A DNA stretch of 50,147 nt from Bacteroidales bacterium (lineage in GTDB: Bacteria > Bacteroidota > Bacteroidia > Bacteroidales > UBA932), in assembly GCA_024398075.1 (NCBI GenBank), contig JAKSJM010000016.1, forward strand, positions 1 to 50,147, given 5' to 3'. The position numbers were made by a program, and so were the translations under genes. The notes under the pieces are model-generated. The model did no database searches. It had not been told where the DNA came from and saw nothing but the letters and a program-made list of their open reading frames with translations. This document shows, in pieces, positions 17,401-26,021 of this stretch. Every line of letters begins with the position of its first letter. The first letter of the stretch is position 1.

Positions 17401-17745
17401 ATGGGAAAATCTGGGATTTATTTTGATTCGTCGAAGTTCGACGAGGTGATGCCTTGTCAGCTTCGTGCTGTGGAGGGCTTGTCCCTCAGTGAGGACGAGT
17501 GGTTCTGTGCTCGCCTCAGGTGTAGACTGCGGCCTACTTTGTTAGGTGGGCTTACAGGTGAGTCGTATGGCTATGGCTTGGTTTTCTACGGCCAGACGCC
17601 ACCTCCCGCTGGTCTCATTTCTTACATTTCTCCTTTTCTGGCGGATGGAGTATGCATCACTCTGCGTTATGGGGACGAAAAAATCCCCAAGCGCATCGCT
17701 CATTGCGACTTGCTTGGGGATATGACTGTGCTTTATGAGGCTTAG
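17401..17745 (+). CDS. Protein of unknown function, 114 residues
   Basis: A 114-residue protein without a signal peptide or membrane segment, which I do not recognise. It has two Cys-containing segments (MPCQLRAVEG, WFCARLRCRLRPT), a Gly-rich centre (LLGGLTGESYGYGLVFYG) and a C-terminal part that may form strands (DGVCITLRYGDEK, DMTVLYEA). The ATG is supported by a clean promoter about 25 nt upstream. The last bases overlap the metK stop on the other strand in CTTAG. Confidence 0.65.
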   Translation: MGKSGIYFDSSKFDEVMPCQLRAVEGLSLSEDEWFCARLRCRLRPTLLGGLTGESYGYGLVFYGQTPPPAGLISYISPFLADGVCITLRYGDEKIPKRIAHCDLLGDMTVLYEA

Positions 17746-19064
17746 AGGCCGAAAGCTTCTTTGATCTTGTCTACCGAGTCGAGAAGCTCCCATCCGAAGA
17801 ACTGGACTTCCTTCTCTACCTGCTTTCCGTCGCGGATAAGGCTCATGGTCTTTGTGTAAGGCTTCTTTCCGAAGTGACCATAGGTGGCAGTAGCTTCGAA
17901 GATAGGGTTCTTGAGGCCGAACTTGCTGATGATTTTAGCTGGTCGGAGGTCGAAGATTTTCTTCACTACCTCTGCGATGTATGCATCGGTGGCCTCTCCG
18001 TGCTTGTCTGAGATGTTCTCAGTGGCAGGAGCGCTGACGTGTGCGGAGCCATAGGTGTCTACATAGACACTGACTGGCTCTGGCACTCCGATGGCGTATG
18101 CCACCTGGACGAGGCACTCATCTGCGACACCTGCAGCTACGAGGTTCTTCGCGATATAACGCGCCGCGTATGCTGCAGACCTGTCTACCTTGGAAGGGTC
18201 CTTGCCTGAGAATGCTCCGCCACCATGCGCGCCACGTCCACCATAGGTGTCCACGATAATCTTGCGGCCGGTAAGTCCGGTGTCTCCAGCTGGACCTCCG
18301 ATTACGAACTTTCCAGTAGGGTTCACGTGAAGGATGAACTTGTCGTCGAAGAGCTTCGCTGTCTTTTCAGGGAGTGAAGCGATGAGACGAGGGATGACTA
18401 TTTTACGTACGTCCTCCTCGATCTTGGCCCTCATGGCATCATCTTCGTCGAACTCGTCGTGCTGAGTGCTGAGCACGATGGTGTGTACACGAAGTGGCTG
18501 GTGCTTGCCTGAGAACTCGATGGTGAACTGAGACTTGGAGTCTGGGCGGAGGTATGGCATGGTCGTAGGCTCATTGTGACGAATGTCAGCGAGGATCTCG
18601 AGCATCTTGTGTGAAAGAGACAGCGCGAGAGGCATGTACTCCTCTGTGTCTGTGCATGCATAGCCGAACATCATGCCCTGGTCGCCGGCGCCCTGTGCGT
18701 CGTCGCTGTCCTTGGTCTTCTGTCCGGTGATGGCATTTGTCACACCTCTGTTTATGTCTACGCTCTGTCCGTGGATTCTGTTTATGATCTCGCAGGTCGC
18801 GGCGTCGAAGCCATACTCTGGTTTGTTATATCCGATATGGTCGATAACCTTACGTATGGTGTTCTCGACATCTTTCTTTGTGCCCTCTATGGCACTGGTC
18901 TCTCCTCCTACGAGGACGAGGTCGGTTGTGCAGAATGTCTCGCAGGCTACCTTCGCATCGGGATCCTGGGTGAGGTAGGCATCGAGAATCGCGTCTGAAA
19001 TCTGGTCGGCTACTTTATCAGGATGTCCCTCTGATACCGACTCACTTGTAAATAAGTAGTTCAT
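17742..19064 (-). CDS. metK: S-adenosylmethionine synthase
   Basis: MetK makes S-adenosylmethionine from methionine and ATP. The 440-residue product starts MNYLFTSESVSEGHPDKVAD, which holds the GHPDK methionine/ATP motif. Other blocks are DAQGAGDQGMMFGYA (the GAGDQG signature), GRKIIVDTYGG and GGGAFSGKDPSKVDRSAAY (the phosphate-binding P-loop). It has small insertions compared with the 384-residue E. coli enzyme, as in other Bacteroidetes. I use ATG 19064; an upstream ATG at 19103 would place the start inside a terminator hairpin. The leader holds a SAM-II-like riboswitch, so the enzyme is probably feedback-controlled by its own product. Confidence 0.97.
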   Translation of the reverse strand: MNYLFTSESVSEGHPDKVADQISDAILDAYLTQDPDAKVACETFCTTDLVLVGGETSAIEGTKKDVENTIRKVIDHIGYNKPEYGFDAATCEIINRIHGQSVDINRGVTNAITGQKTKDSDDAQGAGDQGMMFGYACTDTEEYMPLALSLSHKMLEILADIRHNEPTTMPYLRPDSKSQFTIEFSGKHQPLRVHTIVLSTQHDEFDEDDAMRAKIEEDVRKIVIPRLIASLPEKTAKLFDDKFILHVNPTGKFVIGGPAGDTGLTGRKIIVDTYGGRGAHGGGAFSGKDPSKVDRSAAYAARYIAKNLVAAGVADECLVQVAYAIGVPEPVSVYVDTYGSAHVSAPATENISDKHGEATDAYIAEVVKKIFDLRPAKIISKFGLKNPIFEATATYGHFGKKPYTKTMSLIRDGKQVEKEVQFFGWELLDSVDKIKEAFGL

Positions 19065-19077
19065 GTACTTTGTATAA

Positions 19078-19111
19078 ATAAAAAAAACTCCAGCATGGGA
19101 CATGCGGAGCT
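19078..19111 (-). terminator. Intrinsic terminator inside the metK leader
   Basis: On the minus strand, AGCUCCGCAUG (19111-19101) pairs with CAUGCUGGAGUU (19097-19086), with one bulged U and a 3-nt loop, and a run of eight U follows. The metK ATG lies 13 nt after the U-run. The terminator is therefore between the promoter and the gene, so metK is expressed only on read-through. Confidence 0.85.
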
Positions 19112-19146
19112 GCTTGATGCGACTATAAATGCAAATAAAATATGTA

Positions 19147-19196
19147 GAATTTTAGCATTTTTTAGTGTGGTTGCAAGCAGGCAAATCTTTCCACAT
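19147..19196 (-). ncRNA. SAM-II-like riboswitch aptamer upstream of metK
   Basis: Read on the minus strand, a 5-bp P1 stem (UGUGG 19195-19191 with CCACA 19170-19166) encloses the loop AAAGAUUUGCCUGCUUGCAA. It is followed by a tail with CUAAAAAAUGCUAAAA. The GAUUU, UUGCA and GCUAAAA elements occur in the order and spacing of the SAM-II aptamer. A consensus promoter lies about 15-20 nt upstream. An intrinsic terminator lies downstream, and the aptamer's P1 and loop strands can pair with its 5' half. Identification is by eye against remembered conserved positions. SAM-I and SAM-IV fit worse. Confidence 0.7.
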
Positions 19197-19215
19197 TCCT
19201 TATGTTTTGGGATTG

Positions 19216-19246
19216 CAAAGTTACTACAAAGAATCGTATTGACAAA
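19216..19246 (-). promoter_or_regulatory. Promoter of metK
   Basis: On the minus strand, TTTG (19246-19243), a 19-nt spacer and TAACTTTG (19223-19216) make a full-consensus Bacteroidetes promoter. Transcription would start near 19209-19212, leaving a leader of about 147 nt, unusually long for this window. Confidence 0.75.
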
Positions 19247-19377: not shown

Positions 19378-22300
19378 ATGAAAAGTTTAAAAAAGGTATT
19401 TGTCGCAATCGCTGCACTTTTCGCGAGTGTAGTGATGTTTGCACAGGGCACCACTTCTTCAATGACAGGTGCCGTTACAGACCAGAATGGTGAGCCACTC
19501 GTTGGCGCTACCGTTGTGGCTGTTCACACACCTTCAGGCTCACAGTACTTCTCTGTAGCTGGTAACAATGGTTACTATACCATCAACGGTATGCGTCCAG
19601 GTGGTCCATACGTTGTTACAGTATCCCTCATCGGCTGCAAGTCTGTACGTTTCGAGAACCTTACTCTCCAGCTCGGTGAGACTTCTACTCTCGACGCAGC
19701 TCTCGAAGAGGACACCCAGATGCTTAATGAGGTCGTTGTGATCGCTGACGCTGCTTCTCGTTTCGCTACTGAGAAGACAGGTGCATCAACCAACGTCTCT
19801 AACCAGCAGATGATGAACCTTCCAAACACCAGCCGTAGCATCTCTGCTATCGCTAAGCTTTCTCCTTATGCAAATGGCATGAGCTTCGCCGGTGGTGATG
19901 GTCGTTCAACAAACTTCACCGTGGATGGTGCGAACTTCAACAACAACTTCGGTCTTTCATCAAGCCTCCCTGGTGGCGGTACCCCTATCTCACTTGACGC
20001 TCTTGAGGAGATGCAGATCGTTGTCGCTCCTTTCGACGTTCGTCAGTCAAACTTCGTAGGTGGTGGTATCAATGCTATCACCAAGTCTGGTACAAACTCA
20101 TTCGCAGGTACCGCTTACACCTATTACTCAGATGAGAACTTCCGTGGTAACAAGGTTATGGGTGAGGACCTCGGTGATCGCAAGCCAGAGCAGAACAAGA
20201 TCTATGGTCTCACACTCGGTGGCCCTATCGTAAAGGACAAGCTCTTCTTCTTCGTAAACTTCGAGATGCAGAAGAAGCCTGAGCAGGCTATCAAGTATCA
20301 GCCATCTCCTGACAAGCAGGCTGTCCTCCAGAAGATCAGCGACAAGCTCCAGAATGACTACGGCTACAATGCTGGTTCATACACCGACTTCCCTGGTGGT
20401 ACCGACAACATGAAGATGCTCGCTCGTCTCGATTGGAACATCTCTGACGCTCACAAGCTCAGCTTCCGTTTCAACAAGACAAACAACCAGTATTGGTACG
20501 AGCCAAACGGAAACTCTTGTGATGATAAGTTCCGTAACAAGAGCTACAACCGTTCAAGCGAGCAGGCTCATCCTTTCTCAAACAACATGTACTCTCAGAT
20601 GAGTAATGTTACTTCATTTGCAGGTGAGCTTAACAGCCGCTTTGGTTCTAAGGTGGCTAACCGTTTCCTTGCTACTTACACAAATATCAACGATCAGCGT
20701 GGAAGCAACTCATCTTTCTTCCCTCACGTCGATATCATGGATAGCGCTGACTACTCTTCAGGTAACTTCAAGCCTTACACCTCATTCGGTTATGAGCTTT
20801 TCACCTATAACAATGGTGTGAAGAACAACAACCTCCAGATCCAGGATGATGTTACTCTCTACCTCGGTGAGCATACCGTTACCGCTGGTGCTCGCTTCGA
20901 GTACATGAAGGCTCATAACTCTTACATGCGTAACGGTACTGGTTACTACCGCTATGCAAGTGCTGAGGACTTCCTCAATGGCGCTCTCCCTCTCTCATTC
21001 TGTCTTACCTATGGTTATGACGGAAATGATAACCCTGCAGGTATCGTTGAGTACACTCAGTCAGCTGCTTACGCTCAGGATGAGTGGAAGATCGCCCGTA
21101 ACTTCAAGCTTACCTACGGTGTACGCGCCGAGCTCGTTGCTTTCGACGACAAGGCTATTGTGACAAACCCTAACATCGCTGCTATCGACTACGGCGGAAA
21201 GCACATCGATACCGGTGTATGGCCTAAGACTCGCATCCAGGTTTCTCCACGTGTAGGTTTCAACTGGGATGTTAACTCTGACAAGAGCCTCATCGTTCGT
21301 GGTGGTCTCGGTATGTTCCAGGGTCGTCTCCCTCTCGTATTCTTCACCAACATGCCTCAGAACTCAGGTATGATCCAGGGTAGCTACACTGCTTCTGCTC
21401 AGATCAAGGAAGGCGTGCTCGTTTATGATGATTCTGTAAAGGAGGTTCTCGGCAAGCTTACCGCTGGTGGCAAGATGATGACCGACACCAAGGAGATCGT
21501 AAAGCTTCTTGGTCTCCCTACCACAGCAGATCCTGCAAAGGCAGGTCTCGGTGGCCAGAACTATATCGGTGGTGTGGATTCAAACTTCCGCATGCCTCAG
21601 ATCTTCAAGACCTCTCTCGCAGTTGATTACACCGTTCCTGTTAACTTCCCATTCACTATCACAGCTGAGGGTATGTTCAACAAGACCATCTACGGTGTGA
21701 TGATCCAGGACTGGTCACTCAAGGATGATGCAAGCGTGCTCAAGCACTTCGCTGGTCCAGATAACCGTCTCATGAATATCAATGATTCACGTTATCACAA
21801 TACCAATGCATACGTGATGACAAATACAAACAAGGGTTACGGTTACTCTGCAAACGTTACTCTCAACGCAGAGCCTGTAAAGAACCTCAAGTTGATGGCA
21901 GCTTACACTCACATCGAGTCTAAGGAGCTCTCAGGTATGCCAGGTTCAGCTGCGAACTCAGTGTTCACAGGTCTCCCAACCATCAGCGGTGCAAACAACA
22001 CAGATCTTCAGAGAAGCCAGTATGTAGTTCCTAACAAGGTTATGGCTAGCGTTAACTACGCTATCTGGGGCTTCAACTTCAACCTCTACTACACAGCTTC
22101 TTCAGCTGCAGGTAACAGCTACATCTACACCAACGATATGAATGGTGATGGCAATGCTACCGACCTTATCTACATCCCTGCTACCAAGGACGAGATCAAC
22201 TTCAAGACCCCTGCAGATGCAGATGCATTCTGGGCATTCCTTGAGGCTGACAAGTACCTCAGCAGCCACAAGGGTCAGTACGCAGAGGCTTATGCAGCTC

Positions 22301-22638
22301 GTTCACCTTGGCTCCACAGATTCGATTTCAGCGTAAGCAAGGACTTCAGCTTCAAGATCGCGGGCAAGACCCACGGCTTCCAGCTCAGCGCTTCTATCGA
22401 CAACATTGGCAACCTTCTTAACTCTAACTGGGGTGTTACCAAGATGTCTGCTTACCAGACTTCACTCAACGGTACTATCGCTCCTCTCAAGTACGAGGGC
22501 GTAAATGCAAGCAACGAGCCTATCTTCTCAATGGTTAAGGCTGGTGAAGTATACCCTGTACAGAACTACATCAAGTCATTGATCAACAATTCACAGTGCT
22601 GGCATGCTCTCGTAGGCATCAAGTACTTCTTCAAGTAG
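19378..22638 (+). CDS. TonB-dependent receptor, Oar-like (copy 1)
   Basis: A 1086-residue outer-membrane receptor that imports a ligand using TonB energy. The signal peptide is about 1-23 (ends MFAQ). A carboxypeptidase-regulatory-like domain follows at 25-110 (GAVTDQNGEPLVGATVV, GYYTINGMRPGGPY). The plug is about 115-240, with DGANFNNNFGLSSSLPGGGTP and FVGGGINAITKSGTNSF. The rest is a 22-strand barrel ending in VGIKYFFK. The layout matches the Oar-like TonB receptors of Bacteroidetes rather than SusC, and no SusD partner is nearby. It is followed by a strong terminator and then by a paralogue. The ligand is unknown. Confidence 0.93.
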   Translation: MKSLKKVFVAIAALFASVVMFAQGTTSSMTGAVTDQNGEPLVGATVVAVHTPSGSQYFSVAGNNGYYTINGMRPGGPYVVTVSLIGCKSVRFENLTLQLGETSTLDAALEEDTQMLNEVVVIADAASRFATEKTGASTNVSNQQMMNLPNTSRSISAIAKLSPYANGMSFAGGDGRSTNFTVDGANFNNNFGLSSSLPGGGTPISLDALEEMQIVVAPFDVRQSNFVGGGINAITKSGTNSFAGTAYTYYSDENFRGNKVMGEDLGDRKPEQNKIYGLTLGGPIVKDKLFFFVNFEMQKKPEQAIKYQPSPDKQAVLQKISDKLQNDYGYNAGSYTDFPGGTDNMKMLARLDWNISDAHKLSFRFNKTNNQYWYEPNGNSCDDKFRNKSYNRSSEQAHPFSNNMYSQMSNVTSFAGELNSRFGSKVANRFLATYTNINDQRGSNSSFFPHVDIMDSADYSSGNFKPYTSFGYELFTYNNGVKNNNLQIQDDVTLYLGEHTVTAGARFEYMKAHNSYMRNGTGYYRYASAEDFLNGALPLSFCLTYGYDGNDNPAGIVEYTQSAAYAQDEWKIARNFKLTYGVRAELVAFDDKAIVTNPNIAAIDYGGKHIDTGVWPKTRIQVSPRVGFNWDVNSDKSLIVRGGLGMFQGRLPLVFFTNMPQNSGMIQGSYTASAQIKEGVLVYDDSVKEVLGKLTAGGKMMTDTKEIVKLLGLPTTADPAKAGLGGQNYIGGVDSNFRMPQIFKTSLAVDYTVPVNFPFTITAEGMFNKTIYGVMIQDWSLKDDASVLKHFAGPDNRLMNINDSRYHNTNAYVMTNTNKGYGYSANVTLNAEPVKNLKLMAAYTHIESKELSGMPGSAANSVFTGLPTISGANNTDLQRSQYVVPNKVMASVNYAIWGFNFNLYYTASSAAGNSYIYTNDMNGDGNATDLIYIPATKDEINFKTPADADAFWAFLEADKYLSSHKGQYAEAYAARSPWLHRFDFSVSKDFSFKIAGKTHGFQLSASIDNIGNLLNSNWGVTKMSAYQTSLNGTIAPLKYEGVNASNEPIFSMVKAGEVYPVQNYIKSLINNSQCWHALVGIKYFFK

Positions 22639-22750: not shown

Positions 22751-22784
22751 CGTTTTAATAGATATGTTTAACTTTTCAGCATTT

Positions 22785-25700
22785 ATGAAAAAATCAATCA
22801 AGGTTGTGTTGTCGCTCATCGCGATGATACTAGTGAGTGTGTCTGCCTTTGCTCAGGTGACCACTTCATCTTTGAACGGTAAGGTCACCGATGCAAAAGG
22901 TGCTCCTGTGGCAGGAGCTGCAGTGATCGCCGTCCACACCCCTTCTGGTACCCAGTACTATGCAGTGGCTGACAATGATGGTAGCTACTACATCAACGGT
23001 ATGCGTGCCGGTGGTCCTTACACAGTACAGGCTACTTGTCTCGGCTACAAGGATGTAACATTCACTGATGTTACCCTCCAGCTTGCAGAGCCTTTTGTGC
23101 TTAATTACAATCTTCCAGATGATTCTGAAGTTCTTACTGAGGCCATCGTCATCTCGACCACATCTACCAAGTTCTCTTCAGAGAAGACTGGTGCTGCGAC
23201 AAACATCTCAAGCAAGCAGATTCTTACCCTGCCTTCCATCAGCAGAAGTGTAACTGACATCACCAAGCTTTCTCCTTACGGAGGAAATGGTATGAACTTC
23301 TCTGGTACCTCAGGTCGTTCTGCAAACTTCACCGTCGATGGCGCAAACTTCAACAACAACTTCGGTCTTTCTACCAGCCTCCCTGGTGGTGGTAACCCTA
23401 TCTCCATCGATGCTATCGAGGAACTCCAGGTCGTTATCTCACCTTACGATGTACGTCAGTCAAACTTCATCGGTGGTGGTATCAACGCTATCACAAAGTC
23501 TGGTACAAACACCTTCAAGGGTTCAGCCTACACATACCATCGTAATGAGAACATGCGTGGTAACCGCGTGAATGGCAAGGAGCTCGCTGAGCGTACCATC
23601 GACCGTACCACTACTTACGGTTTCACTCTCGGCGGTCCTATCATCAAGAACAAGCTCTTCTTCTTCGTGAACGGTGAGTACTCAGTGATTCCTTCGACCA
23701 TGAACAAGTGGAGACCATCTGAAGACGGTGTAGCTGATCCAGACAAGAACATCAGCCGTGTCACCATGACAGAGGCTCAGGACATGAGAGACTTCCTCAT
23801 CAAGAAGTATGGTTATGATCCAGGTTCTTTCACAGAGTATCCTGCTGACAAGAAGAACTACAAGATGCTCGCACGTCTCGACTGGAACATCTCAGACAAG
23901 CATCATCTTGCACTCAGATTCAACCACACAAACAGTGTGACCTGGTCTATGCCTTCTTCTTCACGTGATATCGCAGCATTCGCAAACAGCTCGCAGAGCC
24001 AGTATGCAATCACTTTCGCGAACTCTGCATATTCAATGAACAACAAGATCTCGACTGTTTCATTCGATTTGAACAGCCGTCTCTCAAATAATCTTTCAAA
24101 CCAGTTCCTCGTGACATATTCTGACATCGAGGACGTTCGTGGCAGCAACTCAGACCTCTTCCCTATGGTGGAGATCGCTGCAGGTGACCTCGGTGAGACC
24201 GATATGCCTTACATGCTATTCGGTTATGAGCTCTTCACCCTCTATAACAGGGTAGGTAACCAGACTCTTACCGTTAAGGATGACCTTACATACTACAAGG
24301 GTGCTCACAAGCTTACCGCTGGTATCAGCTACGAGGGCCAGGTCGCTCTGAACTGCTACATGCGTAATGGTACCGGTATGTTCCGTTATGACTCTATCTC
24401 AGCATTCAAGAATGGCGAGGCTCCTGTGGCTATGGCATTTGACTGGGGCTACAATGGTGCAGATGATCCATCTGCTACAGTCCGTTTCTCTCAGATCGGT
24501 GCATACGCTCAGGATGAGTGGAAACCAACTGACAACTTCAAGCTCACCGCAGGTGTGCGTTTCGATACCATCGCATTCAACAATGCTGACGTGATGACAA
24601 ACAATGCCATCCTCGCGGCTGACTTCGGTGGTCGTCACATCGATACTGGTATGTGGCCTAAGACCAACATCCAGATCTCTCCACGTGTAGGTTTCTCTTG
24701 GGATGTCCTCAGTAACAAGACCCTCACCGTTCGTGGTGGTACCGGTCTCTTCGCAGGTCGCCTCCCTCTCGTATTCTTCACAAACATGCCTACAAACTCA
24801 GGTATGGTGAAGGGTCGTGCTACACGTATCACCGACAAGAACCTTCTCGAGAAGTTCGCAGGTGGTCTCGTTACCGACAGAAAGGAGATCCTCAACATCC
24901 TGAACTCTTACGATCCTAAGAAGTATCCTACCACCATCACTCCAGAGGATGGTACCATGCCTTCAGAGATCGCAGGCGTAGACAATAACTTCAAGATGCC
25001 TCAGGTATGGAAGTCTTCTATCGCTGTCGACTATCGCCCTCAGACTTCGTTCCCTCTCTCATTCACCGCTGAGTACATCTTCAACAAGACCATCAATGGT
25101 GTAATGCTCTCGAACTGGAACATCAAGGAAGAGAATGCTGGTTGGGCTTCATTCAATGGTGCTGATGGACGTCACATCTATCCTGCATCTTACAAGTACA
25201 CAAAGACCGATGCATTTGTGCTTACAAACACAAACAAGGGTTACGGTTCAGTGCTTGCACTCTCTATGAACGCCGAGCCTGTGAAGAACCTCCACGTGAC
25301 AGCTTCTGCTACCCACACTGTGGCTAAGGAGCTCACCGGTATGCCTGGCTCAAATGCATCTGCAGCATGGCAGTACATCCCTTCAGTCGAGGGTCCTAAC
25401 TTCATGACTCTCCACAACTCTTCTTACAATAACCCATTCCGTGGTATGGTATCACTCTCTTACACTACTAAGAACGATACCTACAGCCTCTTCTACGAGG
25501 CAAATCAGTATGGTGGCAATAGCTACATGTACTTCAACGACATGAACGGTGACGGTTACTCATACGACCTCATGTACATCCCTAGAGATGAATCAGAGAT
25601 CTGCTTCGTTTCGCCTGCTGATGCTTCCCGTTACTGGGCATTCGCAGATCAGGACGCATATCTCTCGGCTCACAAGGGTGAGTATGCTGAGGCTTATGCT

Positions 25701-26021
25701 GTGACACAGCCTATCGTTCAGACCATTGATTTCCACTATGCACATGATTTCAAGATCAAGGTAGGCAAGAGCACTAACTCTCTCCAGCTTAACTTCGACA
25801 TCAACAATATCCTCAACCTCTTCAACTCTTCATGGGGCGTGGCAAAGGTATTCTCAACAGAAGCCATGTCTGGCCGTCTCCTCAAGTATGAGTACACAAA
25901 CAACGAGGGTAAGCCTGTATTCTCTACCAGAGTTCCTGAAGGTGCAAAGACTTGGGATTACTCATACTCAAGCGGCAACTGCTGGTACATGCAGATTGGT
26001 CTCAGATACATGTTCAACTAA
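22785..26021 (+). CDS. TonB-dependent receptor, Oar-like (copy 2)
   Basis: A 1078-residue paralogue of the preceding receptor, with the same domain order: signal peptide (MKKSIKVVLSL to AFAQ), carboxypeptidase-regulatory-like domain (GKVTDAKGAPVAGAAVI), plug (DGANFNNNFGLSTSLPGGGNP, FIGGGINAITKSGTNTF) and barrel ending in GLRYMFN. Plug and periplasmic parts are nearly identical to copy 1, while many barrel loops differ, so ligand range may differ. I prefer ATG 22785 because it gives a normal signal peptide; ATG 22764 would add seven residues. The next gene, a surface lipoprotein, starts 18 nt downstream and probably shares its transcript. Confidence 0.93.
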   Translation: MKKSIKVVLSLIAMILVSVSAFAQVTTSSLNGKVTDAKGAPVAGAAVIAVHTPSGTQYYAVADNDGSYYINGMRAGGPYTVQATCLGYKDVTFTDVTLQLAEPFVLNYNLPDDSEVLTEAIVISTTSTKFSSEKTGAATNISSKQILTLPSISRSVTDITKLSPYGGNGMNFSGTSGRSANFTVDGANFNNNFGLSTSLPGGGNPISIDAIEELQVVISPYDVRQSNFIGGGINAITKSGTNTFKGSAYTYHRNENMRGNRVNGKELAERTIDRTTTYGFTLGGPIIKNKLFFFVNGEYSVIPSTMNKWRPSEDGVADPDKNISRVTMTEAQDMRDFLIKKYGYDPGSFTEYPADKKNYKMLARLDWNISDKHHLALRFNHTNSVTWSMPSSSRDIAAFANSSQSQYAITFANSAYSMNNKISTVSFDLNSRLSNNLSNQFLVTYSDIEDVRGSNSDLFPMVEIAAGDLGETDMPYMLFGYELFTLYNRVGNQTLTVKDDLTYYKGAHKLTAGISYEGQVALNCYMRNGTGMFRYDSISAFKNGEAPVAMAFDWGYNGADDPSATVRFSQIGAYAQDEWKPTDNFKLTAGVRFDTIAFNNADVMTNNAILAADFGGRHIDTGMWPKTNIQISPRVGFSWDVLSNKTLTVRGGTGLFAGRLPLVFFTNMPTNSGMVKGRATRITDKNLLEKFAGGLVTDRKEILNILNSYDPKKYPTTITPEDGTMPSEIAGVDNNFKMPQVWKSSIAVDYRPQTSFPLSFTAEYIFNKTINGVMLSNWNIKEENAGWASFNGADGRHIYPASYKYTKTDAFVLTNTNKGYGSVLALSMNAEPVKNLHVTASATHTVAKELTGMPGSNASAAWQYIPSVEGPNFMTLHNSSYNNPFRGMVSLSYTTKNDTYSLFYEANQYGGNSYMYFNDMNGDGYSYDLMYIPRDESEICFVSPADASRYWAFADQDAYLSAHKGEYAEAYAVTQPIVQTIDFHYAHDFKIKVGKSTNSLQLNFDINNILNLFNSSWGVAKVFSTEAMSGRLLKYEYTNNEGKPVFSTRVPEGAKTWDYSYSSGNCWYMQIGLRYMFN

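Follow-up and report, generated by a model that had tools for sequence, protein, structure and literature searches.

A SAM-II (RF01726) riboswitch before metK in a Bacteroidales genome, probably acting by conditional transcription termination, and the varied metK leaders of its relatives

The window, a stretch of 50,147 nucleotides from a Bacteroidales bacterium, carries on its minus strand metK, which encodes an S-adenosylmethionine synthetase of 440 amino acids (17742..19064). The match to TIGR01034 (485.7 bits, cut-off 309.4) agrees with the preliminary description, made from the letters of the window, in which metK was the target gene. The closest named relatives of this metK belong to the Bacteroidetes (uncultured Bacteroidales). 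Its ATG lies at 19064-19062, beyond a U run and 86 nt 3' of the GCUAAA element of an aptamer. A start at 19103, as given in the list of open reading frames, was rejected because this ATG falls inside a terminator arm and the conserved MNYLFTSESV begins at 19064. Along the minus strand, the leader presents in order a promoter, the aptamer, a 32-nt linker with CAAGCAG, a hairpin followed by eight U and the metK ATG.

The promoter expected from the preliminary description is an exact match to TTTG-N19-TAnnTTTG on the minus strand (19216..19246, read from 19246 to 19216), which we take to be the Bacteroidetes-type consensus. Across the family, once aptamers with fewer than 70 bases upstream and the duplicate L064 had been dropped (n = 154), the full consensus with a spacer of 17-23 was found upstream of 69 aptamers (0.7 expected) and its -7 part, TAnnTTTG, upstream of 129 (11.4 expected). 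A standard sigma-70 promoter was rejected as the start, with 2 sites versus 1.4 expected and a better fit of the Bacteroidetes-type site. Divergent from metK, two adjacent plus-strand open reading frames (19378-22638 and 22764-26021; 1086 and 1085 amino acids) have similar translations, which presumably resemble TonB-dependent outer-membrane proteins.

The aptamer (19142..19200, minus strand) aligns with positions 1-60 of the 60 in the covariance model RF01726 (the long-loop form of SAM-II), with a score of 62.2 bits and E 1.1e-9 against a gathering cut-off of 44. The P1 strands UGUGG (19191..19195) and CCACA (19166..19170) follow the RF01726 consensus structure. GAUUU, UUGCA and GCUAAAA lie on the minus strand as had been described, and the alignment holds P1 together with the whole conserved core, GAUUU / UUGCA / AAUGCUAAA. 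A gene of SAM metabolism stands downstream (metK, by TIGR01034). The locus is the sole match at Rfam cut-offs within the window, and no second RF01726 match occurs in the source genome, an assembly 82% complete. The SAM-II identity proposed earlier thus stands, but under another accession: membership of RF00521 (SAM_alpha) was rejected at 17.5 bits, under the gathering cut-off of 36, and RF01726 fits instead. The sequence GATTTGCC occurs in the window aptamer and in some other leaders. The same RNA family is carried by 175 of 199 family genomes, across all 25 genera drawn, by 58 of 61 genomes of the window's genus and by one of 14 named control genomes (Bacteroides ihuae). A degenerate or chance aptamer that does not bind SAM could be suspected from the loop, which has GAUUUGCCUG in place of the GAUUUGACUG of the RF01726 consensus. 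The score over the full model length and the presence of the family in most of the genomes surveyed argue against it, and we regard it as highly improbable. On sequence grounds, the RNA is a SAM-II (RF01726) riboswitch, a predicted SAM sensor and an ordinary representative of a known class.

In the portions available of PMC2864571, RF01726 is listed for Bacteroidetes and marine sources (table 1); the window shares with these long-loop RNAs its full-length match and its Bacteroidetes origin, and no function-relevant difference from what those portions describe was seen in its aptamer. With SAM_alpha RNAs (RF00521), as described in the available part of PMC1273637, it shares alignable P1, GAUUU, UUGCA and GCUAAA and, with many of them, a putative terminator between aptamer and gene. 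It differs from them in its score, well under their cut-off, and in its gene, since "metK" is absent from the main text of that paper. SAM-V, according to the accessible parts of PMC6061858, has a pseudoknot that closely resembles the SAM-II core but is translational and forms a separate class.

Between aptamer and gene stands a candidate intrinsic terminator (19080..19109, minus strand), indicated by sequence, folding and rule: a hairpin, CUCCGCAUG-UCC-CAUGC-U-GGAG (19109-19088), and then eight U (19087-19080). A terminator with eight U before metK had been predicted at a distance of 13 nt from the ATG; the distance from the eighth U is 15 nt. With its stem lengthened by one G-U pair, the terminator folds at -11.7 kcal/mol. 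A generic terminator scan matched it in part, with 1 site versus 0.4 expected (sd 0.6; 501 bases, both strands), a signal that is weak by itself. The two strand pairs of the earlier antiterminator proposal are also present on the minus strand. The outer strand AUGUGGA (19190..19196), which overlaps the 5' strand of P1, pairs with UCCGCAU (19102..19108), the left arm of the terminator, in the minimum-energy and constrained folds. The inner strand CUGCUUG (19174..19180), in the aptamer loop, pairs with CAAGCAG (19110..19116), as judged by sequence and constrained folds. The two helices, which had been called contiguous, are so on the terminator side, with one nucleotide (C19109) between them, but lie 9 nt apart on the aptamer side.

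Fold energies, computed without the pseudoknot, SAM or kinetics, place the two states close together. Without constraints, the leader reaches its energy minimum in the antiterminator (-28.9 kcal/mol), where the outer helix and the greater part of the inner helix are formed, and the centroid fold contains the terminator and the inner helix together. Thus, only the outer helix competes with the terminator, as had been anticipated, and the inner helix, being compatible with it, does not decide the state. The stability of the leader is mild (z -1.66; 13 of 200 shuffles equally good). Folding with and without a P1 constraint, an approach suggested in the preliminary description, put the antiterminator 4.6 kcal/mol lower in an RNA cut off at 19100, just short of the terminator's 3' arm (-22.6 versus -18.0 with P1 forced). 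For the RNA 19212-19081, the antiterminator, the terminator and the forced combination of P1 and terminator reached -28.9, -28.3 and -26.3 kcal/mol; for 19212-19073, the values were -28.9, -28.5 and -28.0, and for 19207-19081 they were -26.1, -27.1 and -25.8. Across these three RNAs, antiterminator and terminator differ by 0.4-1.0 kcal/mol, with a sign that varies with the assumed 5' end, and the OFF fold, with P1 and terminator forced, lies 0.3 to 2.6 kcal/mol above the antiterminator. Within this energy model, near-equal energies of two mutually exclusive predicted folds are as would be expected of a switch.

Comparisons with shuffled sequences and with relatives give the antiterminator uneven backing. 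The left half of the window's terminator ranked 3 in 200 shuffles for complementarity to the aptamer. Besides the energies of the OFF fold and the mild stability of the leader, three observations count against a switch. A scan of the whole window leader against the aptamer was not beyond chance (107 of 500 shuffles). Covariation among relatives, which the preliminary description had put forward as a check, went undetected in the window's antiterminator register, where own arms did no better than permuted ones (782/2000; 13 distinct pairs). Finally, some terminator leaders of the genus (L033, L034, L038, L042 and L055) have a poor antiterminator, with 130 to 163 of 200 shuffles equally good. 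In the whole-leader test, 5 in 100 shuffles was reached by 3 of 29 terminator leaders of the genus and by none of 8 others. Taken alone, the antiterminator of the window leader is plausible and weakly supported.

In the register of other genera, GUCAAAUC... against aptamer GAUUUGAC, own arms beat permuted ones (6/2000; 27 distinct pairs), and in 21 of the 27 pairs the own arm surpassed the average for arms taken from other genera. With all registers pooled, own-genus and other-genus arm energies were alike (-15.07 versus -15.14 kcal/mol). Within the window's genus, CUCCGC or CUCCCGCA, from the outer arm, recurs in 24 of the 37 sampled leaders whose start codon is more than 15 nt away, a set related by descent that includes the window (0.5 expected from shuffles for CUCCGC), and by eye the right arm of the terminator is more variable than the CUCCGC arm. 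In L083, both sides of the outer helix have changed, with C-G for the window's U-A (aptamer CGUGGA with UCCACG, by eye). The nearest relative by MetK, L066 (88% identity over 141 columns, on a starred branch), retains AUGUGGA/UCCGCAU, has an arm that ranks 1 in 200 shuffles and forms a different inner helix, CAGGUAAA with UUUGCCUG.

Of the two-helix antiterminator first proposed, the outer helix has a recurrent arm. The inner one is compatible with the terminator, and its strand CAAGCAG is absent from all 36 further genus leaders sampled whose start is distant. These two points on the inner helix weigh on the variant in which the helices act together as a single functional antiterminator that requires the inner one. 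The minimum-energy fold, with most of the inner helix formed, and the inner helix of L066, in other letters, speak for this variant; we consider it possible, although somewhat doubtful.

What computation establishes is the aptamer, the promoter match, a hairpin resembling a terminator, the metK gene and a pair of mutually exclusive predicted folds close in energy. We think it likely, and hold this with good confidence, that metK is governed by the SAM-II (RF01726) riboswitch through conditional termination of transcription. When SAM is scarce, the terminator's left arm, on emerging from RNA polymerase, would pair with the P1 5' strand, so that the terminator would be blocked and metK transcribed. 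At high SAM, the aptamer would keep the strand in P1, and the terminator would form and switch metK off. The role of the inner helix CUGCUUG/CAAGCAG would be limited to helping bring the strands together. This reading draws on the RF01726 score, the metK gene downstream, the promoter of the same type before many family aptamers, the antiterminator favoured in the RNA ending at 19100 and the near-equal folds of the longer RNAs. It draws further on the retained outer pairing of the sister L066, on the 70 of 156 family leaders that have a terminator and on the terminator arm complementary to the aptamer in 41 of 65. Homology, folding and the anatomy of relatives thus support the OFF switch on metK that the preliminary description had put forward.

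Alternatively, the aptamer may be real while control acts mainly at translation or RNA stability, the hairpin being a constitutive attenuator outside ligand control. Such an arrangement is suggested by the position of the start codon, at most 15 nt from GCUAAA or inside the aptamer, in 34 of the 72 genus leaders sampled, by the non-significant whole-leader complementarity of the window and by metA of S. meliloti, where, in the part available of PMC9373788, a terminator follows the SAM-II aptamer and no SAM-II-driven antiterminator could be predicted. It fits poorly with the window's ATG, 86 nt past GCUAAA and beyond the U run, and with the aptamer-complementary terminator arm of the window and of most terminator leaders tested. 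We judge it unlikely.

Conditional termination, our preferred reading, is of an already known kind, given published SAM-II terminators and RF01726 in Bacteroidetes. The portions available of PMC1273637 report putative terminators in many SAM-II representatives, suggesting an OFF switch, and include B. thetaiotaomicron among the organisms in a figure. In the sources available in part, putative SAM-II terminators were in print in 2005 and 2007, and by 2018 most SAM-II riboswitches were called transcriptional (PMC6061858); the earlier view of a transcription-terminating SAM-II as unusual finds no support in them. SAM-dependent premature termination is also predicted for metZ of S. meliloti in the available text of PMC9373788, a system like the window in its mode and unlike it in its gene, metZ, and in its host, an alpha-proteobacterium. 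The window would add one further SAM-II transcriptional switch, on metK, consistent with prior knowledge.

The comparative set, with 72 leaders of the same genus, may matter more, as its aptamer core is well conserved while the gene-controlling portion varies. We took 160 loci, all 58 of the genus survey (window included) and a choice from the family survey, and retained 156 leaders after removing L035 and L104, which had no aptamer by pattern, and two duplicates. By rule, these comprised 70 terminator leaders, 51 start-type leaders (metK ATG within the aptamer or no more than 15 nt past GCUAAA), 34 with neither and 1 that ran off its contig end; the corresponding numbers for the 72 genus leaders were 29, 34, 8 and 1. 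Seven of the eight genus leaders with neither were terminators by eye on the MetK tree, and a looser rule recovered a hairpin ahead of a T run in each of the seven (-9.1 to -12.6 kcal/mol); in six, a single unpaired A separates stem and T run.

The left arm of the terminator was complementary to the aptamer at 10 or fewer of 200 shuffles in the 41 of 65 terminator leaders mentioned above, five leaders of g4 and g11 having been excluded before counting. Whole-leader complementarity at 5 or fewer of 100 shuffles was found in 61 of 149 leaders, the window not counted. Three registers are used: the 5' strand of P1 (the window and its genus), GAUUUGAC (mainly g5, g6, g12, g16 and g19) and CUGCUUG (g17). 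In the g17 leaders L119, L136 and L137, the left arm, CAAGCGG, pairs with CUGCUUG, the strand of the window's inner helix.

Among start-type leaders, 34 of 51 come from the window's genus. The metK ATG lies 0 to 6 nt after GCUAAA in 47 of the 51 (e.g., L085, L088 and L095), inside the aptamer in 3 and 11 nt away in 1. A start 0 to 6 nt after GCUAAA leaves no room for a terminator, and start-type leaders are likely a translational form. In L090, L107 and L108, the sole in-frame ATG near the conserved MetK N-terminus is that in aptamer AAUGCUAAA, with an in-frame stop just 5' of it. A pattern search found metK apparently starting at the aptamer-core AUG in 12 of 300 genus genomes, and a reversed control pattern found none. 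These twelve loci are L241-L252; three of them coincide with leaders named above, L241 with L090, L248 with L107 and L243 with L108. All twelve genes encode MLKNYLFTSESV...; the next M is residue 34 in seven, and the other five lack one through residue 40. In one of the twelve, L246, an in-frame TTG is present upstream as well. All twelve loci match RF01726 at E 4e-4 or better, three over the cut-off of 44 and nine below it (39.1 to 43.3 bits). No description of this form was found in the portions available of the openly licensed literature. If such a start is true, the start codon for the SAM-making enzyme would be hidden once SAM binds.

Within one genus, therefore, the same aptamer before metK may have been joined to a terminator arm that copies the aptamer, to an abutting start or to a start at the AAUGCUAAA AUG, with more than one replacement of one form by another; we advance this tentatively, at a little under even chances. 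The window is a terminator-type case within this genus set of platform types. A quick MetK tree of 154 rows, with many weak branches, implies at least 11 changes among the three types within the genus, and no more than 4 to 5 changes per type across the family are required by its starred branches. Among the starred clades, one with nine members (SH-aLRT 96) combines three start-type leaders with six that the first rule missed and that count as terminators both on inspection and under the looser rule. The genus leaders offer a natural series for studying the exchange of riboswitch platforms and raise the question of whether a start codon within a ligand-binding core makes a working switch.

Beyond the sampled leaders, an aptamer lies by pattern at most 450 nt upstream in 52 of the 80 most similar named MetK loci, four of the 80 having less than 450 nt of upstream sequence. 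Among the more distant leaders (L177-L240, e.g., L213, L214 and L226), 36 of those with the aptamer leave 30 nt or more ahead of the gene, and 4 of the 36 have a terminator by rule. In 16 of these 36, part of the leader is complementary to the aptamer at 5 or fewer of 100 shuffles, about 2 being expected, and one of the 16 has a terminator by rule.
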